Positions 1 to 42,443 of a stretch of 64,000 nt of DNA are shown in pieces (within the stretch, counting starts at the first letter, position 1; the number at the start of each line of letters is the position of its first letter). This DNA is from Rugalucina vietnamica (lineage: Eukaryota > Mollusca > Bivalvia > Lucinida > Lucinidae), in NCBI GenBank assembly GCA_964017185.1, contig OZ024871.1:10036214-10100213 (forward strand), read 5' to 3'. Both the position numbers and the translations under genes were made by a program. The notes under the pieces are model-generated. The model was not told where the DNA came from and did not search any database. It saw only the letters and a program-made list of their open reading frames with translations.

Positions 1-104
1 GGTCTATAAATCCATGAATGGTGTAGAACAACTCGAGTATCAGGACCCAAAAATCCGGGATAGTTGCGAAATATACGTTCTTTTGAGTCAAAGTCACTCC
101 CAAC
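1..104 (-). CDS. XYLT: XylT (minus) exon 13, 5' part only
   Basis: After a CCACAG acceptor the frame reads [20 protein letters not shown] and onward, and is still open at base 1. The DFD triplet is at the place of the DWD motif described in human XYLT1. The rest of the Xylo_C domain and the stop codon lie outside the window. Confidence 0.88.
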
Positions 105-3100
105 CTGTGGAGATATGTATTAAGAGAATTTGAAAGCATTCAATTCAAAAGAATTTTATAAAAATAGAAAGTTAAATTACACAATAATTTACAAGAAAGA
201 ATATTTGCGACATCAACATTTGAGCCGCCCCATGGGAAAACCAACAATCTGCCTAGGCGAAAACAAAGGCGCAGATCAGCTTCGCGGTAACCGCGAAGCT
301 GATCAGCGGCTTTGTTTTCGCTACTCGGATAGTACAATTCCTCTTCTACTTAAATCCGAAATTTCAAGCTTCTAGCTGTTTTCTGTGCTTGTACAGGCCG
401 GTTTGTGTCAGACCGGTTCGGAAACCACATTGTTGGTTTTCCCACGAGGCGGCTCATTTCTTTTTACAACACGTGATTTATTTTTTTTATAATTTTGATG
501 TTATTTTTGTTCTAACACAGATTGGGCATACAAATGTATTTCTTAATGTTGATTTATGGATTATTTGATGTAAACAAAACTGAGATCCTTTATAAGAGCA
601 GTGAGAATATTAATGAGAAGAGGGATGGGCCATATCGCGTTTTCGGCTACCTAAGCCTCTTCAGTGACTCTTTAGATTTGGCAAAACGGAGCCAAAGAGC
701 AATGAGAAATACTGTAATTTTGCAACTTTCAGCAGGATAGTCGATACAAAGACTTGTATTATCCAAACAATGCCAAATATATAAAACGTTGGATAGAAAA
801 ATGAATCTAAACCGATAATAAATTTCTAATTTCTCAGAATACCCTCGCTGATCACAAAGGACTGAAAGGAACATATCATCTGCACTATGGATGATGTATG
901 GGAAGGCTTTTTAGGGCCGCCACACGGCAAAACACCAGCTGTAGTAGTAGCAAATTTAAAACTGAGATCCTTTTAGAGCAGTAGTAGCTTACAGTACATT
1001 TAAAGTAACACGATCTTACTGTCAATGTTTGTATTCTCCCGTTACTTGCACTGGTATTCTCGATCTTGAAACGGTTGATCTTGGAAAATCGACTTTCATA
1101 CAGACAGGATGTATCACCTGGTAGCGTCAATGAATGCTTTACTAGATAACTGTGAAGAAGCAAAACGGCCTAATGACATATCATGGATCTATAACAGAGG
1201 TTGACAAAGTAAGGACAAATCTGCAAAGTGAACTCTCGGTCTTATTGTTACAACGATATCTATTAAAGTAATGGTTTGAGCGAAACGAAAAAGGCTTTAC
1301 TATTATTAGCTATTTCGTCAACGAACGTATTTTAAAGGTCAAAATAATGAATATGAAACATAGTGCCGTCTATCCCATCTCACAAAGCATTGAGTATCTT
1401 ACACAGTCATAGATAAATAGTACAAATCATTTCATGTCTAAAAAGAATAAAAAATAGTTTTACCTCTGGAACTTATCATCTTCGAACAGGACATGCGTTT
1501 CAATCAGCTTAAAACCCAGGAGCACGCATTGTTGTGTGTTTCTTTCGAACTCCTCAGAAGCCTGACGAACCAGCGAGTTACCAAACGTAGTAATGATCTG
1601 TGTTTGAGGACTGGGTTTATCATAGGGACTGTAATGATTCTGCCAGTACAGTGATAATTTGGCATCCTCTGGAATACATGAAACAAAACGAGAATTATCT
1701 GTCAATGGGCAATACTAATCAAGTTCATGAACACCGAGTGACTATTCCGTATTATCAATGCGACATTTATACCTGTATCTTTCGAAGACACGCTATTTCG
1801 AAAGTGTAACTACATCGCCTCGGGACTTTTTGTATAAATATGTATACAGGTGACAAAATTAAGTCAACGGGCTTGAACCATCACTAGCTTCATATTCTGG
1901 CTCTGACAGGCCATTTCGATTTTGTTTGTTTGAAACCAGAGCCAATCACTACATAATTAAGCAATATATAATATTTTTCAAGAAAACACAAATCTGAATT
2001 CCAACATACCTGTATGTATTTTTCTGAGGTTCCTGTCGATTAAATCGTATATTTCTTGATTCACAATGGCTTCAAATTTTCTTGCAAAGAATATGGGGTC
2101 ATCTGTATGATTCTCGATATGGAAAACATAATAACTATCAATTATAATATAATATATTATTAATAATACTAAGACACATTTAAACGTGACATGCAGTATT
2201 CTAAACACGTGATAATAATGACATGTTTAGTTCTTTTTGTTTTATGTTTTGGTGTTTAAAATTTTTGTGCTGTTGGCGCCTAATGTATGTTTTCATATTT
2301 TTAGTTAAGTTGATGATTCATGGACTAGTTAGAGATTCACTACGAGGACCGAAGAACTAACTAAATGTTATTAACCACTGCAGAAGCTGAGGGTGAGGTT
2401 ATGGCCATGTAAAACCGGTTTAAGCCCGCCAGTAACTTTGTGTTACTGATCATTCCAAGGCGATACTTCTGTGGTGGTTATTTTTGTTTTATGTCTTGGT
2501 GTTTGAATTTTTTTGTGCTGTTGGTGCCTTATGTATGTTTTCATATTTTTAGTTAAGTTAAGGTAACTGAGTGGCCACCTATTGGGAAAATAGCTGCTCA
2601 TTCGGCTTACGATATGTTTCATGGTATAAGTACCTGATTGTTAGTTTAGTTTTTCCCACCTCGGATTTTGGAGTGGGAATCTTTTTCTGATTGCGCCTTT
2701 TTCTGATTGCGCCTTTTCCTGATCTTTGCCTACTTGTACTTTTTTTTTACATCATATTTGCTTTATTTCGAGAATACCTAAACCATAAAACGCAACTGAT
2801 ATACGTACAGGTTATTTCTATATTTCAGGGACACCTAGTGCACTTTGTTTGTGGCAAAATCGGCTTGCCCCTCGTCCGAGAATGTTTCAGCGAAAACTTA
2901 GCCCCATTTAGCACTTCCGATTGATTTTAGGGTGAAAAATGACAAAATCATCAAATTTTATTTCAAACCCATTCAACCTTACATCGCAAGCGAATTTCAA
3001 TGTCGAATACCAACAACACAGTGTAAACTCGAAAATTCCACCAGCAACGGAGGCCCGTTTTTGATATGGCCATGGCAAAGGAGAGAAAAACAAACATATA

Positions 3101-6100
3101 GAGTGTATTTTTCCTATAAAATATGGTCGTGTGCGGCTTTTAAACATCAATGAAATGCATCCTTTATTATGTTTAAAGTTGAAGTATGTAGTGCATACTA
3201 TTTTCTGAAACACTAACCTGTATCCGGGCGAAATCATCCTGTCTGAGGTTTTTAGGTGAACAACCACAGAAATCCACCTTCCTGCCCACACAGGTACAGC
3301 CTTGTGATCCCACCCAGTTGATCATGTGTAGGCTAATGTCAATCTGGGTGTCACAAAAATCGCTGTTCTGCAGTAGGATATGGAAATAGGACTGGAAAGA
3401 ATGCACGCAACTTTTATGTAACTTTACCCGAAAACGTAAAGGCCTGTTTACACATTCACCATTTTTGGCTACGGTGCCGCTACGACCGATTCGCCACGAC
3501 TTGTAAAATCGTCGTGTATTGTGGTGATTCGTAGTAGAACCGTGAAGAATCTTGATGAATCGTGATGATTCGGGAAACTCCACGGTAGCGTTATGCCCCT
3601 ATCACACTACGAACCCGAACTCCACGAATTGCCACGAATCGATAAATTTTAGGATTCGTGGAATTTCGTGAACTTTTTATGTTTATTCGACATTGGTTAC
3701 GAATCTGTTAGGACACAGACACGATAGTGTTACGAATATTCGGCAGACTCGGCTGAATTCGGCTGCAGTCACACGAAGTTGGAAAGAATTCTTTACGATT
3801 TACAATTATCTATTGAGGATATGCAGCGCGAAAGTTCGAGAATCAGTTACGAATCAGTTGCGAGTATGACGATAACATGTGCGAATAATAAATATTCGTA
3901 GCTGTTCTTGACAATTCGTGAGAATTTTTCTCAAGATAGTTATAAAAGTTATAATACACCTGCTTGAAATATCAGTTTCATCTTAAATGAAGGACGATGA
4001 CCAATTTCTAATACTATTATTCTATCGGCTATGGCCCAAACACTCATTCGCTGATACATGGGAAACTCTTGTTCATAAATTACAACATAACTACCCATCT
4101 CCGAGTCCCTGACTAGCTTTATCCCTGCAACATTTTTCACCTCTGAGGCTTTATTCTCTCAGAAGTAAAGAAGTTACTGTAGCTTCTCTTCAACAGAACT
4201 GGCTTCTGTAGCGCCCTAAATCATAACAGTGCTTTTCTATGTATCTTTCTCCTGTCCTTTGGTGTACCTTTTTAGTTATATTTCTGTTGTAAGATTCGTG
4301 GACTTCGTGGCGCGTTCCATAGCAATCGGCTAACATTCGTGATATAAACTTCCATATTAAATACCATTAATCTCCAGCTTTAATACAGTCCCTGAGGGGT
4401 CATTCGTGTGCACGAGAGGTCCAGAGAAAATTTTTCCATAAATTGTTAGAGACATATCTGAGGTGCAAGAAAATCGAGGGTGATCGGCTGAAATCATGGT
4501 GCGGTCCGAGAAATCCAAGATGGCCGCCAAGATGGCGGCCGATTTTCTTGAAAATGGCTGTATACATAAAAATAGCTACCACAACATGCTTTTACTTGGT
4601 TTTTGGACGCAACATGATTATATTAGAAGAGAATAGATACAAATAGAATGTTCCATGTCATTTTATTATGGCTTAACATCAAAAATATTTTTCCGGGGCC
4701 TGAAAACCATACAAAATTGGTCAAATTTTGATGAAAATATGAGGATGGGGTACAACTGTTTCCTTCACTGTCACTCATTATTGATAAAATGCTTATAAAA
4801 CACCATTTAAACATTAATTAGTCATTAGGCTAAATGACTAAATTCTATAAAAGGCTTTATTCTGACCCTGATGTCTGATAAAAGTGCCTCAAAAGTGGGT
4901 GGGGTAAACAGACCCTTTTGACAAAAATAACCATTTAATTTAATTAAGTTGTCACAACTTGCTTCTAATTACTTATTTTGACATAAAATGTTTATAATAG
5001 GTAAAAAGTGATACAAATACATGCTCTATGCAATATAACACAATTTTGGTAAGAGAAATCCAAGATGGCCACCAAGATGGCGGCCGATTGTTTTGAAAAT
5101 GGCTGTATACATCAAATTTGCAACCACAACATAATTTTACTTGGTTTTTGGACTCAAAATAATTATATAAGAAGAGAAGAGATACAAACAAAAGGTTTAA
5201 TGTCATTTTATCATGGCTAAAGATCAAAAATATTCTCAGGGGCCTGAACACTACACAACATTTGTCAAATTATGATGAAAATATGAAGAAGTTGTACCAC
5301 TGTTACCTTTACTATCACTCATTAATGATATAATGCTTTATTATGCTTAGAAAACACCTTCTAAACCTCGATTAGACAGTAATTAGCCTATATGATCAAT
5401 TTCTTTGAATGGATTTATTCTGATCATGAATTCAGATAAAAGTGCCTTCAAAATGGGTGGGGTAAACAAACCCTTTCATCAAAAATAAACTTTTAACTTA
5501 ACTAAGTTATCACAACTTGCTTCTTCTTAGCTATTTTTACACAAAATGGATAAAATGTGTTATAAATGCATGCTTTTAAGCCACTTTACCCATCCTTAAC
5601 ACTAAATATCTTAAATTTGTATCAGAAAAACGTAGTGATTTGTCTTATTTAATGTAAATTTCACTCAGTATTCAATTTGATATTTTGCTTGAAGAATGCT
5701 TGTAAAGGGTCAGATGAAGGTTTGTTACCCCAAATTGTACAATTTGGCCCATTCCCACCTTCTTACTGCTTCCAAAAGATCAAATAATTGCATTTTCTTT
5801 GGTATTACTGCAACTGGTGTCGTGCCATGTGGCGCCCCTAAAAGTCACCCCATATTTCATCTATAGTGCAGATTATATTTTTCTTTAGGTCATTTGGGAT
5901 CGATAAGAATATTTGAATTATTTCAAACAGATATGTTAAGTTACATATTCTTAACACTATTTATATAATCTGGCCCCTTTGGGAATATTTGATGTAAAAT
6001 TTTTGGCAATCCTGGCTTTCCTTGCCAGCTTTTCAGGGTCATAGATGAACTGATGAGGGTTCATTACCCAACATTGTACTTAACCCTTTAAATGGATTAC

Positions 6101-9100
6101 TGCTTCCAAAGGATCTAATCATTCTATGTTATTCTTAAAATTAAATCGGAAGTAGGATTAATATAAGTTCTTTACAAGTCTTATATCGTCACCGGTTTTA
6201 GAAAGGTTCAGTACCCGAAATTGCGCAATATGGCCCATATTTCCCCCCTTTGAACGTTTTCATTGCTTCCAAAGGATCAAACTTTTATATTTTATTTATT
6301 TTTATAAGTAATGACCACCTTAGTAAAAGAAATATGGCTATTTTCCATTTATGGTGTTTATTTACCCCACCCATTTAAGACATTTGAATTGAAATCAAAA
6401 TAAAAAAAGAAAAAAAGAAAAAATCATGTGTTTATCATGCTCCTCTTTAAAACTATAAAGCCTTTTTAGCTTACCGGAGCCAAGGGCTTATCAAGTGGGC
6501 TTATAAGATAGCAAGACTCCATGATCAATCGTTGTCCGTCATAGACTTACATTAGGAAAACACAAGACCCAGAGCTTCTATATTGTGTATATAGCAATGT
6601 TTGGTAGTCCAAACAAATAAATATCTGCCATATAGGCTTATAATGGGAAAAGTATTCTCTAAAACCACTGAAGCTAGAGCTTGTATATTCAGTATGTTAC
6701 ACTGTTTAGTGGTACCCTACATATATCTTGCCAATGATGCCCCTGGGTCCAAACTGACTAAGCACCAAGGGTCATTAGCCCCCATAGACTTACAATAGGA
6801 AAGCCATAAAAACCTTCCTCTCTGAAATCACAAAGTCCAGGGCTTTTATATTTTGTGTATAGCAGTGGATAATAGTTCCCTTTATAAATCCTGCCAACCA
6901 TGCCCCTTGGGTCTGCGATAGGCTTATAATAAGAAAAAAAACATGAAAAAAAAATCTTCTTCTCTGAAACCACAATACCCAAAGCAGGGATATCAAGTAT
7001 GCAGCAAAAATGAGGCACAATCAAGCCCATGGGGTCAAATTCGGTCCCATCCAGAGGTTATATATACTCCCATATTCTTACAGTGGTAAAACACACAAAA
7101 ACCTTTTCAGAAACCAGGACGCCTAGAGCTTTTATATTTTGTGTGAGGCAATGTTAAAGAATCCTATTTATAAGCCCTGCCAACCATACCCATGCAGTCC
7201 ATTCAGACTATGCCACCGGGGCCTCATTATTTGCCATTCATATCCTTTTTATTAAAGGAACAAATCTTCTTCTCTGGAACTGCAAGGCTCGAGGCTATTA
7301 CTCGTATACTAAGTATGCAACGATCTTGTATGGTGCTTTACGATACATAGATCCAGTAAAGTATACAAAAGATAAAGTATACAAAAAGCCTCTTCTAAAA
7401 CCATGAGCCTTAGAGCTTTTATATTGTGTGTAGCAATCTTAAGTTATCATCTTTGTTAATCTTGTCGCCCGTGCTCCTTGGGCCCATAAGGACACATCCC
7501 ATGGTAGGAGTCATTAGCTCCCCTTCAAGTAAAAAAGTACAAGTAGGCAGTGATCAGGAAAAGGCGTAATCAGAAAGAAATTCAAATTCTAAATACCGAG
7601 GCGGGAAAAAACTAAATTGACAATTAGGTACGAATACATAGAGAACATATCCTTAACTGGGTGAGCAGTGAGCAGGCGGCCACACAGTTAACCAATTTTA
7701 ACTAAACTTATAAAAACGTACATAAGGTTCAAATAGCAAAGAAATTCGACTCCAAAACACAAAACAAATCGAACCACAACAGAAGTATTGCCTTGGAAAG
7801 ATCATATGTATAAAATTACTGGGGGAGGGGTTTAAATCGATTTTACAGAGCTCTAACCTCACCCTCATATTCTGCAGTAGTTCACAACATTTAGTTAGTT
7901 GTTCGGCCCTCATGGTGAATCTCTATTAAACTAGTCAATGAATCATCAAGGACAAACAAATAAATCATGATAACCACCATGATGAATCAAAATCGAGGAC
8001 TCATATATTCAGTTAGCTGTCAGACGATGAAGATCCCTAGGCACCATATAACTTACTGAAATCCCAAGAAAAAGAAAAACACCAGTTAAACCCATGTGGG
8101 CCAAGCAACAGCAAGAAGCTCTGGCCCCAACCAACTAAAATGAATAGCTTTATGTCGGGGTCTTCATCAGTCATCAGAGTCTGACGCCCGACCCACCTGC
8201 ATGCAATAAAGAAGGCAGCATAGTTATCAAACCACGATTGGGTTAAAAACTTAGCATGCAGACTGTCGCATAACATTTAAGTTACATGTATAACCTTTAC
8301 GTGTGTAACGTGTAATGACTTTTTTCTGAACTGAAAACTGTCAAGATCAGGTGAGCCTCCTCTGGTCTTAGTCATAGATGAATACATGAATGGTAGACGG
8401 AATAATTTCATGTCCATCGGTGCTCCGTTAGACCTATCCACACAGAATTGGAGCAAGATCACAAAATGTATCGGAATGCAGGTTAGCCAGCTGATCTAGG
8501 ATAGTGGGTGACAGTAAAGTAAAAGGCCCTGATCATTGTTTTGTATTATGTCATCACAATTTGTCAGTTTCCTGACATTTTCTGGCCTGTATCATAGTTT
8601 GGTGTTATGTCAGGCAAAGATGGCATATAAAGCATGTTTTTATCCCGCTGGTGTTACATCAGGCAAAAATTGCACATATTCATGTATTTTTATCTCTTCC
8701 TTACTATTAAGAATATAGTATCCAAAATACTAAGCAGACGCAAGTTGTAATAGCTAGCTGAGATTAAATAGTCATTGTTTGTAAAAAGGTGTGCTTACCC
8801 CACCCACTTTTAAGGCAAAGCAAAACCAGAATAAATACATTCAAATACCTTAATTATTAAGGCATCATTACTATTTAATTTTGAGAAAGCTATGATCAAG
8901 CAAAAAATGAAATTAAAGGAAAATGTTGCACACATTTGTCATATTTTCATTAAAATGTGACATATTTTGGACATTATTCTGATCCTGGTCTATGATGTTT
9001 GGCTTAAAGTTTGGGTAAAATTGCATGAACGCATGTATTTGAATCACTTTTTATCTATTTTAAATATTTTATGTCAAAATAATTAATTAGAAGCAAGTTG

Positions 9101-12100
9101 TGACAACTTAATTAAGCTAAATGGTTATTTTTGTCGAAAGGGTCTGTTTACCCCACCCACTTTTGAGGCACTTTTATCAGACATCAGGGTCAGAATAAAG
9201 CCATTTAAAGACCTTAGTCATTTAGCCTAACGACTAATTAAAGTTTAAATGGTGTTTTCTAAGCATTATATCAATAATGAGTGACAGTGAAGGAAACAGT
9301 TGTACCCCGTCGTCATATTTTCATCAAAATTTGACCAATTTTCTATGGTTTTCAGGCCCCGGAAAAATATTTTTGATGTTTAGCCATTACAAAATGGCAT
9401 AAAACATTCTATTTGTATCTATTCTTTTCTAATTAATCATTTTGATTTCAAAAACGAAATAAAAGCATGTTGTGGTAGCTAATTTTATGTATACAGCCAT
9501 TTTCAAGAAAATCGGCCGCCATCTTGGCGGCCATCTTGAATTTCTCGGACCGCACCATGATTTCAGCCAATCACCCTCGACTTTCTTGCACCTCAGATAT
9601 GTCTCTAACCATTTATGGAAAAATTTTCTCTGGACCTCTCGTGCACACGAATTACCCCTCAGGGACTGGAGTACTTCTAACAAACTCGTAGTTAAGTCCT
9701 AAGTCATTCGTAACACTCTTGGCTGATTCGCATATGGATGTGAATTCGTAGATAGTTCTTCCCTTATTCGTATCTGCTTTGGTGTGTATTCGCGACATTC
9801 GTAACGGATTCGCTGTCAATTCGTAGTTGGGTAACAAGCTCCGGAATTCCCGAAAGAGTTACGAATGCATCCGAATCAGATAAGATTCAGACACGATGTC
9901 ACGGAATGCGTTACGACTTTGTTGCGAATTAAATGCGAATTTTTTTGGTCGAAAATTTGGGACCAAAGTTTTGAACAGTTCTAAATTTTGGCCACGAATT
10001 TTCGACTGACCCAAGAACTTACTACGAACTGTAAGAATTAGTTAAGAACTTCACGAATCGTTTACGTTTCAGGTACGAATCGAAAGAAATGTCAAAAGTT
10101 GTCAATTCGTGACGATTCGGGAGACAATTTTTCGTAGTGTGTTAGGGGCATTACGGAAGTTTTAAACTGTTTAAAACATTCGTGGTGAATCGTGGTGGTT
10201 ATTGGGCGTGGCCTAATTCGTAGCGGAGTCGTGCTTATTCGTACTGATACCGTAGCTATATTCGCGGCTATTCATGAGAGATCGTAGCCAGTCGTGGAAT
10301 CTTTGACACCACGAATTCTCACGATTCATCACGAATTGTGTACGGTTGTCCTACGAATCATCCACGGTTTCGCTACGGGGCTACCGCCGTGAATCGTACT
10401 AGTACCGTATCGAACCGTACAAGCACCCTGAGCATTCTTTGTGCCACCGTGGTCAATCCTCGTTGACCGTAGCGTTGCCGTCATGGATCGTCATTGATTC
10501 GCAGCGATACCCTACAGACACCGTACTAATATCGTGGACATTCTTACTGGAATCGTAGTGACACTGAATATTTCCACTTTTCGTCACGATTTATCCCGAT
10601 CCATCCCGAATTTTCTGACAATAGAAATCGGGGTGAATCGTGGTGAATCGTAGAGAAAATCGTGAATGTGTAAACGGATCTTAAAGCACAGACACACTTC
10701 GATCTGCATTCAATTGATACATCAGCAATCATTGAATAGCATGATACGAAAAATGCATAGTGGCAATTGTGAAGCACGAAAATATGCGGAAGTGATGCTG
10801 TTTCGAGCACTAAATGTCCAAAAGCCATTTCAAAAATGAAATATGGCAGCCGATAAACCAGCTCAAACTCTTGATACAACTGAAACAATATCGAAGTCTT
10901 GTAAGGAAGAATGACTCAGGCAAGATATTTCTTACCTCCAGGGGTGAAAATGAATGTTTTGCCCATTCCATCAGCCCATTGATCAATGGGTCGCTCGCTG
11001 TCACTGCATATGTACAGAAACTTCTATGTAAACCAAACCAATCGCTGCCTCCATCGTATATAATGCCTGACGGTAACTTATGTTTTGGTCCCAGTCGCCA
11101 CAGATGGTCGTCGCAGTCATGGAATAGAAACCCAAGTCCTTGCTTATCTATAAAACTGCAAGAAAGAGATTTTTTCAGTTGAACAAAGTCAGATTTATTA
11201 TTACTACAGCTGTAGGCATAAAAGGTCTGTTTCAAATTGATCTGAATTGTAATTGGTACATAGATTACTTAACATCAATTAATACAAAATATTTTATATC
11301 ATTGAATATAGTTTTGAATGAATAAAAACTAAAACTGAGATCCTTCATCCTGTTAGAGCAGCAAAAATATTAATGAGAAAACAGATGGGCCATACCGTGG
11401 TTTCGGCTATTCAAGCCTCGTCAGTGACCCTTTAGATTCGACATGGACCCAGAGTTTGTACCTTTCAACAGGGTAGTTCATACAAAGACTAGTATTATAC
11501 ATATGGGTCAAATGTTGGTTAGAAAATGTGTCTAATTCTGATTTCTCATCATCGCTGATCTCGTAGGACGAAAAGAAAAATACATGTATAATCTGCAACA
11601 TGGGTGATGTACGAGGAGACTTTTTAAGGCCGCCACACGGCACATCACCAGCTGCAGTAATAGAAAATAAAAAATAAAACTGAGACCCTTTAAGAACAGC
11701 AAACATATTAATGATAAAACAGATGGGCCATACCATGGATTCGGCTACTTAAGCCTCATCAGTGACCATTTAGATTTAACATCGGGCCAAAGAGAATTAT
11801 TACAATTTTGTACCTTTCAACAGGGTAGCCAAAGACTAGAATTATCCAAATGGGGCCAAATATATTGAATGTTGGTTAGAAAATGTATCTAAACCGAAAA
11901 TAATTTTCTGATTTCTCATAATATCCTCGCTCATCTCAAAGGACCAAAAGGAAAATATAATCTGCACTACGGATGATGTACGGGGAGACATTTTAGGGCC
12001 GCCATACGACACAACACCAGCTGCAGTAATAGCAAATAAAAATAGAACTGAGATCCTTTAATAGTAGTGAACATATTAATGAGAAAAGGGCTGGGCCATA

Positions 12101-15100
12101 CCATAGTTTCGGCTACTTGAGCCTCGACAGTGACCCTTTAGATTTGATATAGAGCCAAAGAGAATTATAGTAATTGTGTACCTTTCAAGAGGGTAGTCTT
12201 GTATTATCCAAATGGGACCAATATATTAAATGTTGGTTAGAATATGTACAGTATCTTAACCGATAATAATTTTCTTATTTCTCAAAATACAAAGATGATG
12301 CTAGTTTACAGCGAGTTGGCCATCACGTTGGTACAGTGGATGACTTTATCTTACATTTACTTGGGAGTTATTTCTACCTTACCTAAAAGTTTCAGCTTCA
12401 TGAGACTTGATGAAATTAGCACCTTGGTATGATCTGAGAAATTTAGCCAGCACATCTGTAGATCTGAATTACAACACGAAAAGTTAAAAACTCCTGATAC
12501 ATGTAATTCATAGCTGTGTTTGTGCAACAGTAACAAGACATTTTTCTGTGAAGGGCATGGTTGTATTTATACCATTACAAATTGTTAATAAAAACACAAA
12601 AACAGCAAACTTATACTAAGTGCATCGTAGTAACTAAACTAACATTTGTCTAGCATGGTATTCGTTCAGTTTAGTTGCGGGTTTCAAGTACCTCGTGCTT
12701 GAATGAAATGTAAAAAACGTGTAACTCAAATGCTACTGTTAATTAAACGACTTTAATACAAATGCAGAAAACCATACTTGATTGGGTATGCAGATTCGCT
12801 TAAATTAATGAAGTAGTCCCAGGTCCAATCTTTCATCTTGACCAAGGTTCTCATCATGCTATAGGTAGCTTGTAACACGGAAAAGCCACCCCATTCAGCG
12901 GTGTACCTTTCTTTAGCTAATCGTAAATTCGGTAATGTGTTTTCTAGTTCCAGGAGTTCTTGGTACATATACTCTGCTTTCTGAAAGAAAAACAATGCAA
13001 ACTACTTTCTAAAATTTCTCAAAGTGTCAGAATGAAAATTCACCCACAATAACGATTAACGACATCAAGTTCTCGCATTTTTTTAAGAATTAAATTTCAG
13101 GATTGACTCGATAAGACTTAAAACAAAACCATCTCCCTCAGAGCAAGACGGGCACCAAAACATAAGCTAAAGTGTCATGTACAACAAACAAGGGTACAGA
13201 ATAAACAGATAAGATATATACTAGCCAAAACTCTCTCTCAAAAAAAAAAAATCTGAATTCTGTTAACTCCTCTACAAAGACAGACACTTCACCGAGTAAG
13301 AGCAGTGTGAAAACATTTACAAAATTTTCCAAACAGCACGCAGGGTGTTCCACTGAATATCGATACCCCCAGTTTTAACAATCGCAATTTAAAAAAAAAA
13401 AAAACTCAAGACGCTTTTACGTGAGGGCCTTCCGTATTTTTATGGAGACACGTTACAGGCGTATAGGATAGAAAATAAATTTTATGCGACAGGCTGTATG
13501 CTTAGTTTTTAACCCAGTCATGGTTGATAACTATGCTGCCTTCTTTAATTGCACGCCGCTGTTTCGGGCGTCAGACTCTATGATGGTCCCGACTTAAAGC
13601 TGTTTATTTAAGTTGGTTGGGGCCGGAGCTTCTTGTCTGGTGCTTTGCCCACCGGGGTTAAACTGGTGTTTTTCTTTTGCTCCGGATTTCAGTAAGTTAT
13701 TTGGCTCCCAGGGATCTCCATCGTCTGGCAACTTACTCAATCTGTGATGCCTCGTTTTTTCTTCTTCATGGTGGTTATCATAATTTATTTGTTTGTCCTT
13801 GATGATTCATTGACTAGGTAGAGATTCACCACGAGGACCGAACAACTAGCTAAATGTTATGAACCACTGCGGAATGTGAGGGTGATGTTAGGCGCCTGTA
13901 AAACCGGTTTAAGTCCCCTCCCCCAGTAATTTTATACTACTGATCGTTCCAAGGCGATACTTCTGTTGTGGTTCTATTTGTTTTATGTTTTGGAGTCGAC
14001 TTTTTGTGATGTTTGAACCTTATGTACGTTTTCATAGCTTTAGTTCAGCTTGGGTAACTGAGTGGCCGCCTGTTGGGAAATAGGTGCTCACTCGGATTAC
14101 GATGTGCTTTCTAAGTACAAGTACCTAATTGTCAATTTAGTTTTTTCCCACCTATATGTTTGTGGAGTGGAAATTTCTCTCTGGTTGCGCGGCCTTTTCC
14201 TGATCATGCCTATTTGTACCGTTTCACATAAAATTTGACTTTGATTGGCCAAGCTGTTTCGGAGGTGAAGGTGTTCGAATGTTATTGTAATATACATGTA
14301 TATCGCCCCGGGCAGGGGCAGATGAGCCCCTTGCGACCAATAATTTTCAAAATTATCAATATTCAGTCCTACTGCCCATTTCCTGTAAGAGTTTCCCTTC
14401 AAATGACATTTAAACACTTTTCCCCATTCAAATGCATGGAAGATCTATGTTGATATTGCCGTAAAATAGGTCAAAGTCACCACAGGGTCATGGATTATAT
14501 ACACACTGTAGTCACTTTAGTCATTAATGCATCATGCAAGTTTTGTTGAAATCGGTCTACCGGAAGAAGATTTTTGAAGGGTGGGTTTTTACCATATATT
14601 GACATGGTGGCCATCATATATACTTCCTATATTCAAGATTACCTTGTCGACATGAATAAAGATGTAGTGGTCCGGATGGTATATAGCCTTGATAAGTCTT
14701 TTAACCTGTCTCACTGCACGGCCAGCAACCACCAAAGCAAACACAATGCGAACTGGTTTCATTTTCATTATTTCATCAGGTGGGTGAACCAGTTGTACAT
14801 CCCGGTTTCGCATCACTGAAACAGATGCGTTACTTACCTTTTGTGTGGCAGTTCTAGGATTTCATTACGAAAACATGCCCATGCAATAAAGAGAGATTTT
14901 CAAAGATTAACAGTAGAAAAGTTTTGATAGTTTCCTTATTTTTGCTCAAAACATAGATTGTGGGTACACGTTAGTACCTTGGCGAGGCGGTTCTAACAAG
15001 TACCAACAATCTATGTTTTGGAGCAAAAATAAAAAAAGTAGATATACCCCTGCATATCCCAGTTTTGCTGTATAATAGTGGGGTTCAAGGAGGTATACAT

Positions 15101-17888
15101 TACACGGACATGTTTTCGTGATGTAAAAGGCTGCCTCATAATGTCATTCATTGCCATTTACATAAGCCTAATTACAGAAGCAAGCATAAAACCCCCCACA
15201 TCTAAACATTTGGAAAACGATCAGAATTCAGACAGAGCAAGGAATGATGTCTGTTATTGTTAATGAACACAACATCAATGCTTACTTTCTAACAACCCAG
15301 TGCTAAACACTCGGATAGCACCATATCCACCGCAGGACTGGGACCGGTTACAAGGACAACTGAGACTACACGCAGACTCTGGCAATGAACCGTATCGTCC
15401 GTAATAGTTGCCACACCAACACTCCACAGAAAACTGCAGAGCTGCACACGAATAACCTGTAAACAAATTATATTAAAACAAGTACGCGCTATATACAGTA
15501 AGGAAAAATGGCATAAAATATCCAATTGACTGCCTATATTTCTAATATATACTAAGACTTAATCTTGGGATGAATACTATCACCGCCTTGTGTGCAGCCA
15601 CATTTGTTACGGCGCAGATTGACGCAACATCACATGTCACGTGCGGTGATTCTGGTCAACAACCCACTGCCTAGCGGGTATATCTAGTGATCAATCAGAT
15701 AGTTAAACGTCTTTGATTTCAAGGTACTAAAGATTTGCTGCTTTCGATTTTTGACCATCATGATAAACAACAGGATAGTCACGAATATCTTCTCGAGGTA
15801 TTTTACATGTCGTTAGTTTATACCCCCAAGAGATTCAAATAAAAACAAATGTGCCAGTAAAGTTAACTAACCTCCGTTAATACAGATTTCAACACAATTC
15901 TCTGGACTGTTACTTTCTCTCAGTGTCATTACCCAATTACCCACGTCTCTGTTGTCAGCTTTGTCTTTGAAACATCCTGGGTACTGGCCTTTATGATTGT
16001 TACCTGGAAGGTCAAGAACTTAAAGTGATCAGTCGACTTTCTTATTGTAAACAATCTATCTGGGTCTGTGTGCAGCGGGCAAAATTTCTCATCGCGTATT
16101 AGCACCATCTGTTGCAATATTTGATACATGCCGATCTTGCGTAGTCATACATCAAAGAACTCACTGACTGATATTCGAGAAAAACAACAGAGTTTCTCAA
16201 TACTGAGAGACGAAAAACATGCAATTAATATCGTCTTTCCTTCAATCTTCCTTGTTCTGTATACTCTTTTCGAGCTGGTGTCTACTCTTTAATATGTGTT
16301 TTGAGATGATGTGCGTTTAAAAGGTAACTCAGCACCGAGACAAAAAGGGACTACCCCTTTTTAAGTGGACATAATTTTGCCCATCTTGAACCTCGCATTG
16401 TATTATGCTAATACTCTTTCATCAATCAAAAATATCAATTAGTTATCATTAAAACATAAAAGGATGTGTTTCAAGTGAGGCGTTAATTGTGTGATGTACG
16501 TATATGTACCTCTCAGAGGACAGTATCTAGGAATTGTATCTGGCATCAACTTTCCGGCTTTGTCTTGGCACACAATATCAGCCAGCTCTTCTTTACAAAC
16601 CTCGGTCTTCGCCCTCGCAATAGCGTAAAGTGCTTCTTGGTCGGTTATTTTACAGCTGAAGTTTCTTGCGAGGATATCACCAAACCTTTCATCGTTCAAT
16701 AAGGTTTTACTCTTTGCGTCTTTTTGCTTTTCCACATCCTTAATTGGTATACATCGAAAATTTAAAATACTTTATCGAATTTACATATAAGCAATACATA
16801 ACAAATGGCAATTCGATTGCATTCGCTATTCAAAAAGGTTTTGGTTTATGGTAATTTGACACGATTTTGAAACATGAAGAAACATACATTTCTGTTCTTT
16901 GTTCGCAACTAAACGATAAACCTAACCGTGGGTGACGAAAATGTGAAGGAAATGTAAGTATGGCACATGTTGATTCCTGCTCACGAACAATAATGTGATA
17001 GATAACACTGTACCCCTTTTGAGTTCCATAAATCTATAATTATTATACAATTTATACGAAAAATAAGAAACAAATACAGATTGTTAATTTAGTTTTTTCC
17101 CACCTCAGTTTTTGTAGTGGGAATCTTTTTCTGATTGCGCCTTTTCCTGATCTTTGCCTACTTGTACTTTTTTAATTAGATGCCCTCATGGCTTATCGGC
17201 TTCTAGAATCAATTCAATTTGGCACATAACGTGAAATGTAGGGAATACTGTAAGTCCGCTATAATTTCCCGTTGTAGACCTTTGAGTTATGATACATGAA
17301 CATACTTACCTGTTTTGAGTCTAGACTCAATGGACGCCAAACCGCTTGTCAGGGACGATGATAAAATCACCAACTCCTGATTACATTGTTGCATCCATGT
17401 AATTATGAAATCATGCTCATGCAATATACAGATTTTTCTGATGTTGTAAAAATTGAAAATTTTGATATTTTTCTTACTTTTGCTCAAAACATAGATTGTG
17501 GGTACACGTTAGAACCGCCCAAGTTTTTCTATATAAAAGTGGGGAATAAGGGGGTATATACTGCACAGAGATGTTTTCCTGATGTAGACATACTCACCTG
17601 AATTTTGAGTCTAGACTCAATGGACGCCAATCCGCTAGTCAGGGACGCTGATAAAACCACCAACTCCTGATTACATTGTTGCATCCATGTAGACACATTG
17701 TAAATGAGCAAAATCTGAGATCCTAATATTGTTACACAAAAACACAATAATAATAATGTTTTAGAAACACTTGAAACTTTTTCCAACGCAGTAGAACCGT
17801 TTGTAGCATTGGCTGATAAAACAGAGCTGATCGCAGTATTCTCCACTGACATTGAAGTAGCAGCAGAACCTTTTTTTCTGGCAGTCAT
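1..17888 (-). CDS. XYLT: Peptide O-xylosyltransferase, minus-strand paralogue (gene span, 3' end cut)
   Basis: This is a type II Golgi enzyme that transfers xylose from UDP-xylose to serine in proteoglycan core proteins, the first step of glycosaminoglycan synthesis. I assembled exons at 17598-17888, 16510-16738, 15872-16003, 15286-15456, 14643-14815, 12778-12980, 12383-12463, 10936-11155, 3218-3391, 2010-2112, 1464-1668, 1020-1149 and <1-104. All have AG/GT borders and phases that join without a break. The order is: short cytosolic tail, membrane anchor (about residues 43-64), stem, WSC domain (about 176-274), GT14 catalytic domain (from about 289), then the Xylo_C region. A WSC domain is usual in invertebrate members (fly, nematode) and absent from vertebrate XYLT1/2. 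At least 738 residues are seen and the rest of the last exon lies before base 1. It lies head to head with a close paralogue at 19819-28959. Introns are swollen by transposons but no exon is broken. Confidence 0.93.
222..455. mobile_element. MITE family G, copy 1, with 4-bp target duplication
   Basis: This 234-bp element has inverted ends GAGCCGCC...GGCGGCTC and is flanked on both sides by ATTT. Its core is a 31-base palindrome at 274-304 with one central unpaired base. The same family occurs at 32048, 53396 and 56037. It sits in intron 12 of the minus XylT gene. No coding capacity is seen. Confidence 0.85.
575..990 (+). repeat. Family T repeat, single unit
   Basis: This is one copy of a ~350-bp repeat that starts near ACTGAGATCCTTT and ends near GCCGCCACACGGCA and CACCAGCTG. 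Arrays of the same unit are at 11325-12290 and 30930-32000. Confidence 0.75.
1020..1149 (-). CDS. XYLT: XylT (minus) exon 12
   Basis: The exon is 130 bases, phase 2 to 0. It encodes the conserved [20 protein letters not shown] block. The donor ACA/GTAAGA corresponds to the paralogue's GCT/GTAAGA. Confidence 0.9.
1464..1668 (-). CDS. XYLT: XylT (minus) exon 11
   Basis: The exon is 205 bases and begins [18 protein letters not shown]. Its acceptor CAG and donor GTAAAA match the phases of exons 10 and 12. Confidence 0.9.
2010..2112 (-). CDS. XYLT: XylT (minus) exon 10
   Basis: The exon is 103 bases. It encodes the [18 protein letters not shown] motif, very close to the FFARKFEA block that links the GT14 and Xylo_C parts in animal xylosyltransferases. 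Confidence 0.92.
2226..2745 (+). mobile_element. RT-element 3' tail, composite copy
   Basis: A 90-base piece of the tail (2226-2315) is followed by a longer, nearly complete distal tail (2312-2745), so tail segments are joined out of order. The distal part ends in the family terminus TTTGCCTACTTGTAC. It includes the covarying hairpin at 2431-2447. Confidence 0.8.
3218..3391 (-). CDS. XYLT: XylT (minus) exon 9: GT14 domain end
   Basis: The exon is 174 bases, phase 0 to 0. It encodes [20 protein letters not shown] and a [17 protein letters not shown] segment. It is separated from exon 8 by a 7.5-kb intron filled with nested DNA transposons. Confidence 0.93.
3959..4142 (-). other. Unexplained exon-like open frame inside the middle element
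   Basis: About 60 codons without a stop contain segments such as [14 protein letters not shown] and [20 protein letters not shown]. They run into CAG/GTGTAT, a fair splice donor. The composition looks protein-like rather than random. I do not recognise the family, and the upstream acceptor is poor. It could be a captured host exon, a remnant of the element's own gene, or chance. Confidence 0.25.
5560..6470. repeat. Low-copy repeat filler of the inner element
   Basis: This is AT-rich sequence with recurring phrases (TGCTTCCAAAGGATCAAA; TTTACCCCACCCA) and a diverged, reversed family T fragment at about 5800-6000. No open frame of interest was seen. Confidence 0.5.
6545..7500 (+). repeat. Diverged tandem repeat array
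   Basis: At least five irregular units share the words CTTATAAT or CTTACAAT, CTCTGAAACCACAA, AGAGCTTTTATATTTTGTGT and CCTGCCAACCATGCCCC. Spacing is uneven (about 90-300 bases). It lies in the centre of the inner element. Open frames across it are short and not conserved between units. Confidence 0.6.
7535..8340 (-). mobile_element. RT-element tail with last codons of the RT
   Basis: On the minus strand this copy begins in the last RT codons ([16 protein letters not shown]-like region, decayed). It then runs through the whole tail to the CCTACTTGTAC end. It is the youngest layer inside the transposon nest of XylT intron 8. Confidence 0.82.
10936..11155 (-). CDS. XYLT: XylT (minus) exon 8: GT14 domain
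   Basis: The exon is 220 bases and includes the family signature [17 protein letters not shown]. It ends in phase 0 at GAG/GTAAGA. Confidence 0.93.
11325..12300 (+). repeat. Family T tandem array, about three units
   Basis: Units start near 11328, 11673 and 12043, with a period of about 345-370 bases. Each holds a conserved GGGCCATACC...TTTCGGCTA block, a GGTTAGAAAATG block and a GCCGCCA end. It lies in intron 7 of the minus XylT gene. Confidence 0.8.
12383..12463 (-). CDS. XYLT: XylT (minus) exon 7: GT14 domain, 81-base exon
   Basis: This short exon encodes [20 protein letters not shown] and a few further residues. CAG and GTAAGG borders and the 2-to-2 phase fit between exons 6 and 8. I found it by searching for the partner of the plus-strand exon at 24059-24139, which has the same length. 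Confidence 0.9.
12778..12980 (-). CDS. XYLT: XylT (minus) exon 6: GT14 domain
   Basis: The exon is 203 bases, phase 0 to 2. It ends with the family motif [15 protein letters not shown], which lines the nucleotide-sugar site in this family. Confidence 0.93.
13404..14222 (+). mobile_element. RT-element 3' end and full tail
   Basis: It starts in decayed RT codons (LLREGLP-like), passes the last RT block and carries the complete tail. It is inserted antisense in XylT (minus) intron 5. Its hairpin at 13925-13941 has one mismatch. Confidence 0.82.
14643..14815 (-). CDS. XYLT: XylT (minus) exon 5: start of GT14 domain
   Basis: The exon is 173 bases, phase 1 to 0. It holds the first strand-helix unit of the glycosyltransferase fold ([19 protein letters not shown], then HYIFIHVDK). 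Confidence 0.92.
14864..15124. mobile_element. MITE family W, intact copy
   Basis: The ends CATTACGAAAACATG and CATGTTTTCGTGATG are inverted repeats. The centre is a large palindrome built on CAAAACATAGATTGTGGGTA. Relatives are at 17396, 43790, 58575 and 60103-60923. It lies in XylT (minus) intron 4. Confidence 0.75.
15286..15456 (-). CDS. XYLT: XylT (minus) exon 4: WSC domain, second half
   Basis: The exon is 171 bases, phase 1 to 1. It carries the cysteine-rich WSC end ([30 protein letters not shown]). Its length equals that of the paralogue. Confidence 0.92.
15872..16003 (-). CDS. XYLT: XylT (minus) exon 3: WSC domain, first half
   Basis: The exon is 132 bases, phase 1 to 1. It encodes a typical WSC opening ([24 protein letters not shown]). 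Its length and phase equal those of the paralogue. Confidence 0.92.
16510..16738 (-). CDS. XYLT: XylT (minus) exon 2: stem region
   Basis: The exon encodes the Cys-containing stem with the block [20 protein letters not shown], which the paralogue shares exactly. It starts after an AAG acceptor in phase 0 and ends in phase 1. It is 27 bases shorter than the paralogous exon, an in-frame difference near its 5' end. Confidence 0.9.
17082..17172 (+). mobile_element. RT-element tail, terminal 90 bases
   Basis: Only the last part of the tail is present (TTTTTTCCCACCTC...TTTGCCTACTTGTAC), as expected for strong 5' truncation. It lies in XylT (minus) intron 1. Confidence 0.8.
17310..17397 (-). pseudogene. 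XYLT: Duplicated piece of XylT (minus) exon 1
   Basis: This segment encodes [20 protein letters not shown] and a few more residues, almost identical to the end of exon 1. It even has its own donor, CAG/GTAAGT. It lacks a start codon, the membrane anchor and a clear acceptor, and loses two bases before the donor, so it would leave the wrong phase for exon 2. It is most likely a recent dead duplicate inside intron 1. Confidence 0.75.
17396..17588. mobile_element. MITE family W, half copy
   Basis: The copy starts at AATTATGAAATCATG and ends at TTTTCCTGATG, with one half of the central palindrome deleted. It fills the space between exon 1 and its duplicate exactly. Confidence 0.65.
17598..17888 (-). 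CDS. XYLT: XylT (minus) exon 1: start, membrane anchor, stem
   Basis: The ATG at 17888 opens a basic, Ser/Ala-rich tail followed by a hydrophobic segment (residues 43-64). I chose it because the plus-strand paralogue also starts about 30-40 residues before its anchor. It ends in phase 0 at a CAG/GTGAG donor. Compared with the paralogue it lacks about ten residues just after the anchor. Confidence 0.85.
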
Positions 17889-18129
17889 ATTTGAAAAGAT
17901 AACAGAATTGTAAAAAGCTGAATAGTTCTTTAACACGGCGTTGAAAATACAAGTATTAAACCTTAAATCATAATAAAAACGTCGGATCTAAACGAAAGCC
18001 GAGGAGGCAGTCAAGGCTGAATATAATTAAAGTTGCCTTCTTTGTGTTTAGAAGACACTTTTTTTGATGATTCGACGCAGTAGTGATTCGGTATTGTATA
18101 TATGATCATTGTACCGTTGAAATTATTTG

Positions 18130-19320
18130 ACGCTGTCAATAGTTATAAAATAGACATGACATACATTATAAATACTAACGACCCTGGGCATGCGTTCAGA
18201 AAAAGTTCCGCGATATTCTGAACACGCGTCTGCATGCCATCATTGTTAAAAATCTGGGTAGGATGGCAAACTTGGCCATGCTTTTTCGGCACAGTCCATC
18301 GAAGCTTTGATGAGGTCGGAAAACGTAGGTCTACATTATAATCTAGGTATTTCTTTTGTTGTTGTTTTATCGTGACAGTCATGTCCATTGTTATAATCTT
18401 ATACTCTTTTTGGAATCCACACTATCGTTTTAGAATAAGTCCCGCGAATTTCCTTTCCGCTTGTATCTAGAATATGGATGCAGCGATAAATTCTCGTGGG
18501 ATAGTCTCCTTCCTGCACATTCCTGAATTAAATTTGTCAGTTTCACTGCCATTTGTAGCCGGTTTGTCCCCTCTCAGTCTTGTATTCCTGACAGCTATTG
18601 CTCATCTGTACCTGGAGCTTTGTCTGATGGCACAGATTTTCTGCATTACAGGACAGTCGGACAGAACATTGCACTCAATCTGAGGAAGTAATCGATTGCA
18701 TCGTCATTGCTTCTAGGTGGGCGATTGAGCAGGCTAGTAAAATGTTCTGCCCATATCTCTATTTGAGAGATGGTACCATAGCTCTTTGGGCTATAAAATG
18801 ATTTTTATGGCCTCATCGGATTTCGCCATGATCTTCCTATCAGCAAAAGACTGAATTTCTTCAGAAGGATTCTTGTATGTCCCTGAAGTCGATACTTCTG
18901 TGGTGGTTCTTTTTGTTTTATGTCTTGGTGTTTTAAATGTTTTGTGCTGTTGGCGCCTTATGTATGTTTTCATATTTTAGTTAAGTTAAGGTAACTGAGT
19001 GGCCACCTATTGGGAAAATAGGTGCTCATTCGGCTTACGAAATGTTTTCATGGTATAAGTACCTGATTGTTAGTTTGGTTTTTTTCCCACCTCGGTTTTT
19101 GGAGTGGGAATCTTTTTCTGATTGCGCCTTTTCCTGATCTTTGCCTACATGTACCTTTTTGTATGTCCCTGAAGATTAGTCTAGAGTGTTCTTTACATAC
19201 TCTTACCGAATGCCGCCTTCCTGGATACTGAGCTAATATCATGTTCCTTGTGGAGTCGTTGCTTTTCTTCATAAATCATTCTCGTCTTTATCTTTTCTTT
19301 CTTTCTTTCTGGAGAGGCGA
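18130..19320 (-). pseudogene. Decayed non-LTR (LINE) reverse transcriptase fragment
   Basis: Read on the minus strand, short segments match the usual LINE RT order: KNPSEEIQSFADRKIMAKSD, then SDKAPGTDE, then NDGMQTRVQ. Stops and frame changes separate them. The similarity is to the RTE/CR1-like 'GKAPG-DGI ... FHDGMQARV' type; the clade is uncertain. It is interrupted at 18889-19159 by a retroelement tail. Confidence 0.6.
18889..19159 (+). mobile_element. RT-element tail with 15-bp target duplication
   Basis: The 271-bp tail is flanked by TGTATGTCCCTGAAG at 18874-18888 and again at 19160-19174. The flanking LINE sequence resumes across the duplication. This fixes the 3' end of the family at ...GTACCTTTT and shows that a 5'-truncated, tail-only copy inserted by retrotransposition. 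Confidence 0.9.
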
Positions 19321-19818
19321 TTGGTATTTAAGGAATATTTTTGGCCTCAGATGTCGGTTAAATTTAATTTGGAATTTAGATTACGATCACCCATGACGTA
19401 CGCCTTTATCTTGCCCCGGCGCCTTATGGCACTTGTGTATGCTTTCACTAATAGCGTATTGCATACTCCTGTAGTTTCAGCGCTAGCAATTTTAAGCAAA
19501 GTTGAAAAGGTGAAACAGAAAACTACTTCATGCATTAAGATCAACGGATATGCAGAAAATCGTCGTTTATATTGAAACGTCACTGATCCGAAAAGTTTAT
19601 CGGGTTTTACCAAATTAAACATGTTGAATAGAGCAAATAACTTTTTTCACATACTTGTTCTTATTTAAAATATAACGATCTTGATTTTTTAAGCATTATC
19701 GATTGTGCTGATCTTTTTATATCCGACGTTTTAATTATGATTTAGAGCTAAATCTTCGTTATTTCAACACCATGATTAGGAACGGTTTAATATTTTTAAT
19801 TCCGTGGCTATTTCAAAC

Positions 19819-28959
<9,141 letters not shown>

Positions 28960-30750: not shown

Positions 30751-32000
30751 ACTTCCAACATGATAGTCGATACACAGACTATTATAATCAAAAGGGGCCA
30801 AATATATTAAACGTTGGTTAGCAAATGAATCTAACCCGATATTAATTTTCTGATTTCTCAGACTACCCTCGCTGATCTCAAAGGACCAAAAGGAAAATAT
30901 AATCTACACTATGGATGATAAGGTTATATTTTTTACATAAAATAAAACAAAATAAAAAAAAACTGTTAATTTATAAAACAAAAATAAAACAGAAATCCTT
31001 TAAGAGCAGTGAGCATATTAATGAGAAAGGGGGTGGGCCATACCGCGGTTTCGGCTACTGACCCTATAGATTTGGCAACATGGTGCTAAAGAGAATTAAT
31101 GTAATTTTTTTTGTAACTTCAAACATGATAGTAGATACACAGACTGTTATAATCAAAAGGAGCCAAATATATTAAACGTTGGTTAGCAAATGAATCTGAG
31201 CCGATATTAATTTTCTGATTTCTCATAATACCAGTACCCTCGCTGATCTCAAAAGACCGAAAGGAAAATATAATCTACACTATGGATGGTGTACGGGGAG
31301 ACTTTGTAGGGCTGCAGTAATAGCGAATAAAAATAAAACAGAGATCCTTTAAGAACAGTGAGCATATTAATGAGAAATGGGATGGGCCATACCGCGGTTT
31401 CGGCTACTTCAGCTTCTTCAGTGACCCTATAGATTTGGCAACATGATGCCAAAGAGAATTACTGTAATTTTTTGCAACTTCCAACATGATAGTAGATACA
31501 CAGACTATTATAATCAAAAGGGGCCAAATATATTAAATAGTCGTCTAAAACGTTGGTTAGCAAATGAATCTAAGCCGATATTAATTTTCTGATTTCTCAG
31601 AATACCCTTGCTGATCTCAAAGGACCGAAAGGAAAATATAATCTACACTATGGATGATGTACGGGGAGACTTTGTAGGGCTGCAGTAATAGCAAATAAAA
31701 ATAAAACAGTGATCCTTTAAGAACAGTGTGCATATTAATGAGAAAGGGGATGGGCCATACCGCGGTTTCGGCTTCTTCAGCTTCTTCAGTGACCCTATAG
31801 ATTTGGCAACATGATGCCAAAGAGAATTACTGTAATTTTTTGCAACTTCCAACATGATAGTAGATACACGGACTATTATAATCAAAAGGGGCCAAACATA
31901 TGAAACGTTGGTTGGAAAATGAATCTAAGCCGATATTAATTTTCTGATTTCTCAAAATACCCTCGCTGATCTCAAAGAACTGAAAGGAAAATATAAAAAT
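30751..32000 (+). repeat. Family T tandem array, about four units
   Basis: Unit starts lie near 30980, 31332 and 31696, after the right part of the split unit. The period is 352-364 bases. Units here are closer to each other than to the XylT intron copies, as expected from local expansion. Confidence 0.82.
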
Positions 32001-33032: not shown

Positions 33033-33376
33033 TCATATACTCTCCTGATCAGCGAGTGGTGCTAATTCCCTGTCTAGACTGAGTGTCTTTGCTCGACTAG
33101 TATTATAGGCTTTGTATAGTTTACTTTTCCTATGTTTTTTTATCTCAGTCTGCGCTTCATCAAACAGAGGTTCAGTTTCAATGACATTTTCTCGATTCTC
33201 TTTCTCTGTTGGTAGACCAGGTCCATTTTCTGCCTTTTCAGTTTTGTCTTGTTCTAGATTGCTCATATCCGGCATGACAAGCGGCTCTAAGATCATCAGA
33301 AGAGCGGGTATAAGGAGCATCAAGGCTGTTGTATAGTAGGATATTTTCCAGTCACCTGTTACATCTTTTATCCAGC
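33033..33376 (-). CDS. MCT-like exon 6: last helix, cytosolic tail, stop
   Basis: GWIKDVTGDWKISYYTTALM starts the last helices. A charged tail rich in Glu and Lys follows and ends ADQESI with TGA at 33033. Confidence 0.88.
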
Positions 33377-39300: not shown

Positions 39301-40551
39301 CGATCAGTAATATAAAATTACTGGGGGTGGGGGCTTACAGGGTTTTACAGGGCCCTAACCTCACCCTCATCTTCTGCAGGGGTTCATAACATTTAATTAT
39401 TTGTTCGGTCCTCGTGGTGAATCACTAACTATTCAATGAATCAACATGGACAAACAAATAAATCATGATAACACCACCATGATGAATCAACGACGAGGGC
39501 TCACAGACTCAGTAAGCTGCCCGACGTTGGAGATCCCTGGGCGCCGAATAACTTACTGAAATCCGGAGCAAATGAAAAACACCAGTTGAACCCCGGTGGG
39601 CCAAGCAACACACAAGAAGCTCCGGCCCCAAACAACTAAAATGCATAGCTTTATGTCGGTGCCATCATAGAGTAATTTTTCCGTTTTTGAATGGTGACGT
39701 TGCTCGCCGTGCTTCATATGGCGTATACATATTGCAACTTAGTAGGTTTGTTAGAGTCTGCAATCGTGTTGCAGACTTCAACGCGCGAAATAAATGTTTA
39801 ACAGCCAAACTTCTCCAGCAGGGCTATCTTAGACTTCGAAAAACGTAATTGAGAAAATGGCTGTCCATTCGGCTTACATTCGGCTAATCTCCCTTTGAAT
39901 GTTTTTACTGCTTCCAAAGGATCAAACCTTTATATTTTATTTACAATATGTTTATTTAGTATATGTACCTGATTCTTAATTTAGTTTTTTTCCCACCTTT
40001 GTTTTTGGAGAATTCTTTCTGATTGCGCCATTTCCTTATCATTGCCTACTTTTACTTTTCTTAATTTTATCGCAGACACTATAAATTGATTTCCAAATTT
40101 AATGTTGGGTTAAAGACGCTTTTACGTGAGGGCCTTTCGGAACCAGAATTTTATGGTGACTTGGTTTACAAATTTAAGAAACTTATAGGAAGGAATGATT
40201 TTTCCTTTCAGTTCAGAAAAATCATTATATTTTACAGACGTAAAGGATATAACTTAAATGTTATGCGACTGTCTGCATGCTTTGTTTTAGCCCAATCATG
40301 ATTGATAACTGTGCTGCCTTCTTTAATTGCACACCAGTGGATCGGGCGTCAGACTATGGTGGTCCCTACACAAAGCTATTCATTTTTAGTTGGTTCGGGC
40401 CGAAGCTTCTTGTCTGTCGCTTGGCCCACAGGTGTTCAGCTGGTGTTTTTCTTTTGCTCCAGATTTCCAGTAAGTTGTTTGGCGCCCACGGATCTCCGAT
40501 AGCTTATTGAATCTATGAGTATTCGTTTTTATCATCATGGTGGTTATCATT

Positions 40552-42201: not shown

Positions 42202-42266
42202 ATCAAATCGTACTTTTGAGTTTTTCCATTTCTTTTAACTTCATTCGTTAGTGAAAAGAAAGGAAC

Positions 42267-42443
42267 ATGTATACGGTTATTTTTGTGTTGGGGTTATGCT
42301 CAGCTGCATACGCCCACATAGTGTACCAGACAAAGATCCCAAACGGGGATTCGGTTCCAGATCCCTGCTCATCTGGAATCTGGGGCCCAGTAGGACATTA
42401 TAACGCACAGAGACATACGACTGCGAAAAATCCCTTCGGATTG
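42267..42443 (+). CDS. Temptin-like exon 1
   Basis: Signal peptide and first half of the temptin domain. Donor TTG/GTGAGT in phase 0. The following intron is 611 bases and contains a faint remnant of the divergent RT-element tail near 42550-42640. Confidence 0.88.

Follow-up and report, generated by a model that had tools for sequence, protein, structure and literature searches.

A head-to-head pair of WSC-domain peptide O-xylosyltransferase genes in the lucinid bivalve Rugalucina vietnamica

Introduction

Xylosyltransferases decide where glycosaminoglycan chains begin. According to the available part of PMC5992326, the fly and the nematode each have one xylosyltransferase gene and vertebrates have two isozymes, which agrees with the copy numbers that the initial annotation of the present locus had given for these animals. 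The two genes that we describe here from a bivalve encode proteins with the same Branch (GT-A) and Xylo_C domains as Drosophila oxt, C. elegans sqv-6 and human XYLT1 and XYLT2 (EC 2.4.2.26), but differ from all of these in forming a linked inverted pair. Drosophila OXT also carries a WSC domain.

Gene conversion between inverted gene copies is a known process, and the available part of PMC3199776 provides a lophotrochozoan precedent in the Dlx pair of Capitella teleta. Like the genes studied here, the Capitella Dlx genes are tightly linked inverted paralogs with evidence of conversion in a part of the gene. They are, however, tail-to-tail transcription factor genes whose 150-bp tract also covers intron sequence, whereas the bivalve pair consists of head-to-head enzyme genes in which the candidate tracts stop at exon edges. 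No published report of this xylosyltransferase pair appeared among the matches listed in a search of the open-licence literature, and the available parts of PMC8478517, PMC6367135, PMC12784826, PMC9351233, PMC11632948 and PMC4122909 contain nothing on paired genes. Searches of microbial contigs with two short peptide patterns, which have little bearing on animals, gave 64 pattern matches in bacterial and archaeal contigs and 33 in viral contigs, none of which was confirmed as a relative.

Results

The window examined here is the whole analysed stretch of 64,000 nucleotides (contig OZ024871.1, assembly GCA_964017185.1), and it contains no N. Rebuilding the gene models from splice sites gave two WSC-domain peptide O-xylosyltransferase genes lying head to head, gene A on the minus strand and gene B on the plus strand (Table 1). 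Every intron has GT...AG borders (12 of 12 in A and 12 of 12 in B) and the start phases of exons 1 to 13 are equal in the two genes. Exons 3 to 12 also have the same lengths in A and B (132, 171, 173, 203, 81, 220, 174, 103, 205 and 130 nt), so that the rebuilt models reproduce all ten of the identical lengths, and the equal phases, listed in the initial annotation. The first two exons differ in size, exon 1 having 291 nt in A and 279 in B, and exon 2 having 229 and 256 nt respectively. A chance resemblance is excluded because the same residue is encoded by 585 of the 724 aligned codons. The earlier statement that both genes look intact is borne out in full for B, which is complete with its stop codon, and for A only up to the window edge, which cuts off exon 13 after 104 nt; the open reading frame of A is uninterrupted that far.

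Table 1. Coordinates in the window of the two genes and of associated features
Feature	Position	Strand	Remarks
Gene A, WSC-domain peptide O-xylosyltransferase	1..17888 (17888 to beyond base 1)	-	3' end cut by window edge
Gene A, exons 1-7	17598-17888, 16510-16738, 15872-16003, 15286-15456, 14643-14815, 12778-12980, 12383-12463	-	
Gene A, exons 8-13	10936-11155, 3218-3391, 2010-2112, 1464-1668, 1020-1149, 1-104	-	exon 13 incomplete
Gene B, WSC-domain peptide O-xylosyltransferase	19819..28959	+	complete, 913 aa, stop codon ends at 28959
Gene B, exons 1-7	19819-20097, 20640-20895, 22092-22223, 22713-22883, 23212-23384, 23636-23838, 24059-24139	+	
Gene B, exons 8-13	25290-25509, 25927-26100, 26544-26646, 26985-27189, 27492-27621, 28345-28959	+	exon 13 includes stop codon
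WSC module of A (exons 3-4)	15286..16003	-	phase-1 introns on both sides
WSC module of B (exons 3-4)	22092..22883	+	phase-1 introns on both sides
Partial tandem copy of 3' part of exon 1, in intron 1 of A	17312..17401	-	probably a non-functional fragment
Spacer between start codons	17889..19818		1930 bp, contains dispersed repeat
5' block of gene A	17890..18030	-	homologous to 5' block of B
5' block of gene B	19681..19817	+	homologous to 5' block of A
Dispersed repeat in spacer	about 18886-19160		between the two 5' blocks
Exons 11-12 of A, candidate conversion tracts	1020..1668	-	low synonymous divergence from B
Counterpart of candidate tracts, exons 11-12 of B	26985..27621	+	low synonymous divergence from A

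In each of the two proteins Pfam recognized WSC, Branch and Xylo_C domains, bearing out the proposed identity as WSC-containing xylosyltransferases (Branch 9.1e-38, Xylo_C 2e-26 and WSC 1.7e-14 in A; Xylo_C 1.1e-33, Branch 4.9e-33 and WSC 1.2e-17 in B). The Branch (GT-A) and Xylo_C matches exceeded the Pfam cut-offs in both, and in A, which is truncated at the window edge, the Xylo_C match is partial. The best solved structure for both proteins was 6ej7, Xylosyltransferase 1 (E 1.1e-141 for B and 4.4e-118 for A), the human enzyme XT1 described in PMC5992326. A third, C-terminal XT1-like stretch was matched in B (residues 809-879); the end of A lies outside the window. The WSC domain occupies residues 186-266 of B and 181-261 of A, between an N-terminal XT1-like stretch and the GT-A domain, a place where human XT1 has no WSC module in our alignments. 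In exon 1 of both genes an N-terminal hydrophobic stretch can be seen by eye, which bears on a type II Golgi membrane protein.

We compared the active sites using human XT1 numbering, which was obtained with an offset of 208 anchored on E529 and D745-D747 and in which C261, C461 and F498, three residues named in PMC5992326, do not fit their letter. Human XT1, A and B share W392, K461, Q462, D494, W495, E529, R598 and K599, and also the cysteines C561, C563, C572 and C574 of the disulfide-bonded active-site flap. In human XT1, E529 is the catalytic base and D494, W392, W495, R598 and K599 belong to the donor site (available part of PMC5992326), so that both bivalve proteins share their catalytic base and UDP-xylose-binding residues with the human enzyme. 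The acceptor flap has changed, with G in place of human R557 and F in place of W571 in both copies, and with Y565 replaced by G in A but by R in B; mutation of R557 alone had little effect in human XT1 (PMC5992326, same part). The first DXD motif (314-316) is absent from A and B, at the second (745-747) A has DFD and B has EFD, and the same source places neither DXD of human XT1 near the donor site. Changes confined to B adjoin active-site residues at two positions (G393S and F600L). Judged by these sequence features, both copies are predicted to be active peptide O-xylosyltransferases.

Across the 724 aligned codons the amino acid identity of A and B is 80.8%. In this alignment dN was 0.115 and dS 0.70, and the dN/dS ratio between the copies, a check that the initial annotation had called for, was 0.17. 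Both copies are maintained by purifying selection, and the view of the pair as maintained head-to-head paralogs stands on this ratio and on the active-site residues kept in both. Neither copy is clearly the faster evolving, because one-sided matches to human XT1 in 511 ungapped columns were similar in number (14 for A only and 10 for B only, p 0.54). We found no residual homology beyond that of shuffled sequences in 11 of the 12 intron pairs; intron 8, whose length is 7544 nt in A and 417 nt in B, aligned via a dispersed repeat only. The 70-bp match of 90% identity in this intron (6229-6298 with 25546-25615), considered as a conserved non-coding element, proved to be that repeat, which has further matches including 39891-39943, 47108-47189 and 6084-6133.

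Synonymous divergence is a mosaic. Against an overall dS of 0.70, exon 11 has a dS of 0.27 and exon 12 of 0.19. Taken jointly, exons 11 and 12 differ at 11 synonymous codons where 27.4 would be expected, and none of 5000 permutations with the amino acids held fixed gave a value as low; these exons were chosen after the per-exon values had been seen, and multiplication by the 78 possible exon pairs leaves the result below 0.02. The spliced exons 11-12 contain identical runs of 33, 36 and 69 nt, the longest being in exon 12. Across exons, synonymous divergence was heterogeneous (p 0.0008) with a run statistic of p 0.0003, while further run tests gave p 0.03 for the longest run and p 0.16 for the poorest 25-codon window. 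Exon 4 alone gave p 0.094 when codons were permuted within amino acids. With exons 4, 11 and 12 removed, the remaining 415 codons still held an unchanged run of 19 codons in exon 9 (p 0.03), and the overall run statistic was p 0.14. Intron 11, which lies between the two exons, is not alignable between A and B, and in exon 11 dS is low but dN is not. No unusual RNA fold was detected in four pieces from both genes (the whole of exon 12 and the first 136 of the 205 nt of exon 11), z ranging from -0.34 to 0.90, and we rejected RNA structure in these pieces as a cause of the low synonymous divergence.

Within exon 11, dN/dS reaches 0.81 in codons 605-650, compared with 0.15 for the other codons (Fisher p 0.008); this region was picked after looking at the data. 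Scans for dense amino acid differences placed the top windows in exon 1 (p 0.06-0.12) and, when exon 1 was left out, within codons 590-648, where the three window sizes gave p 0.31, 0.03 and 0.02. As regards positive selection in exon 11, these values are suggestive only.

The initial annotation had described a divergent spacing of 1.9 kb, and the distance from ATG to ATG is indeed 1930 bp. The approximately 140 bp directly upstream of each ATG can be aligned between the genes (local score 86; the highest among 200 single-base shuffles was 49). These 5' blocks match only each other in the window (68 bp at 76.5% identity by blastn, E up to 0.01), each follows the orientation of its own gene, and they contain a core that is near-perfect between the copies, ATCCGACGTTTT.ATTATGATTTA. 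The repeat in the spacer has 12 other matches of at least 250 aligned columns in the window, at 72-96% identity, as well as shorter ones. Because no similarity is left in the introns while the 5' block can still be aligned, selection has probably preserved this block in both genes, either as 5' UTR or as promoter.

The fragment of exon 1 in intron 1 of A is, over 89 columns, 95.5% identical to exon 1 of A and 77.5% identical to that of B. We rejected it as a functional alternative exon, its donor-like site being out of phase with exon 2, and comparison with the window revealed no extra exon 1 copy at gene B. A tandem array with a 368-bp unit (3.4 copies, 30751-31996) lies 1.8 kb downstream of gene B, and related copies of this unit occur within A (introns 7 and 12) and within B (intron 12). 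Two tRNA-Ser(GGA) predictions of 48.7 bits each fall in intron 7 of gene B (24495-24568 and 24827-24900, minus strand), in what reads as a duplicated repeat. Two SECIS_1 matches of 39 bits each, against a gathering threshold of 35 (21655-21722 and 37954-38021, minus strand), fall within dispersed-repeat copies and are probably a chance similarity of that repeat.

Pieces of several other genes were found in the window. A transporter gene is represented on the minus strand at 33033-34929 (Pfam MFS_1 4.8e-19 for 33679-34353), its neighboring pieces and its monocarboxylate-transporter type having been recognized by eye only, and a temptin-like gene of at least two exons, as would fit a molluscan genome, lies on the plus strand at 42255-43291 (Temptin_C 2.6e-08 and 5.6e-19). 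A Fam20 secretory-pathway kinase gene is partly represented at 53644-58262 on the minus strand (Fam20C 2.3e-27 for 53644-54096). The best match of its upstream piece is zebrafish Fam20C (2.2e-39; xylosylkinase 4.9e-16) and that of its last exon is FAM20A (7.3e-22), then FAM20C (5.5e-20; xylosylkinase 3.3e-15), and an exon between the two pieces was seen by eye at about 56571. We considered and rejected a cluster of successive linker enzymes, since the glycosaminoglycan xylosylkinase (FAM20B type) scores lower in both Fam20 pieces. In the pearl oyster, fam20C reportedly takes part in shell formation.

Discussion

We consider it likely that the locus represents an inverted duplication in which both copies are working enzymes with their own 5' blocks and have undergone exon-limited conversion. 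An ancestral WSC-domain peptide O-xylosyltransferase gene would have given rise to an inverted, head-to-head copy that included approximately 140 bp of 5' flank. Both copies would then have been kept as functional Golgi enzymes, using UDP-xylose to add xylose to serines of proteoglycan core proteins, the first step in making glycosaminoglycan chains. Both are presumably transcribed, each probably driven by its own 5' block, and occasional conversion between the inverted arms, limited to exons, probably kept exons 11 and 12 (perhaps also exon 4) alike as the rest diverged.

This explanation has to be weighed against several others. Inverted duplicates are a recognized type of misassembly, and the pair was seen in assembled sequence rather than in reads, so two alleles, or a single locus assembled twice in inverted orientation, deserve consideration. 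Usual allelic divergence is far too small to account for a dS of 0.70, however, and the introns show no residual homology and are very unequal in length in a window free of N. We regard such an artefact as highly improbable and a haplotype duplication as rejected, given the dS and the unalignable introns: A and B are an old paralog pair, not two alleles or haplotypes. The suggestion that the two genes may share control, when taken to mean a single promoter, was likewise not supported. One bidirectional promoter driving both genes, with co-expression as the reason that the pair stayed together, would fit ATGs lying 1930 bp apart in a spacer that was presumably shorter before the repeat was inserted. 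Bidirectional promoters usually have their start sites within about 1 kb, though, which is less than this spacing, and each gene has a conserved 5' block oriented with itself and separated from the other by repeat sequence, so that we find a shared promoter improbable. Each gene instead seems to own a copy of the control region, because each block follows the direction of its gene, with the dispersed repeat between the two, and co-regulation through the duplicated blocks is possible.

The main rival of gene conversion is constraint on the coding RNA, such as splicing enhancers or an overlapping function, as the source of the low synonymous divergence of exons 11 and 12. Tracts that stop at exon edges beside an unalignable intron 11 are what constraint would lead one to expect, and exon 11 has many amino acid differences in spite of its low dS. 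The folded pieces, on the other hand, have no unusual RNA structure, and with the amino acids held fixed these two exons are strongly unlike the others; we therefore view constraint as possible but unlikely. Conversion limited to exons probably explains the low dS of exons 11 and 12 (perhaps 4), although the unalignable intron 11 means that conversion would need to halt at the exon edges, and this reading is weakened by that intron, by the p value of exon 4, by the mixed run tests and by the dN of exon 11. A division of roles, with one copy as a general initiator of proteoglycans and the other specialized, for example for the mantle or shell matrix, is a tentative idea that we hold to be rather unlikely. 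It is favored by the B-only changes beside active-site residues, by the dense amino acid differences in exon 11, and by leads from other species: a xylosyltransferase, of a type not given, is raised as mRNA and protein in the extrapallial fluid of Mercenaria (available part of PMC8902148), and peptide O-xylosyltransferase entries are present in tables comparing Mytilus tissues (available part of PMC4581086). Against it stand the foreign origin of those leads, the choice of the exon 11 region after the fact, and scans that favor exon 1 and otherwise give mixed p values. The most far-reaching reading, of an ancient molluscan inverted pair with shared copies of a cis-acting block, an exon-sized conversion in Xylo_C, a small diversifying segment, and general versus shell-mantle enzymes, appears to us a long shot.

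Returning to inverted duplication with two working enzymes, the pair is for the most part an ordinary gene duplication of a well-known enzyme, and it raises the question of whether the two copies have divided the work. Its most useful features are the 5' block and the candidate conversion tracts. The block is conserved where the remaining non-coding DNA cannot be aligned and is a concrete candidate for a control element, and the exon-sized tracts of similarity lend themselves to testing gene conversion between inverted paralogs. A clam xylosyltransferase has been connected with the formation of the shell (available part of PMC8902148), and a maintained pair outside the vertebrates provides an independent comparison with XYLT1 and XYLT2 on the division between isozymes.
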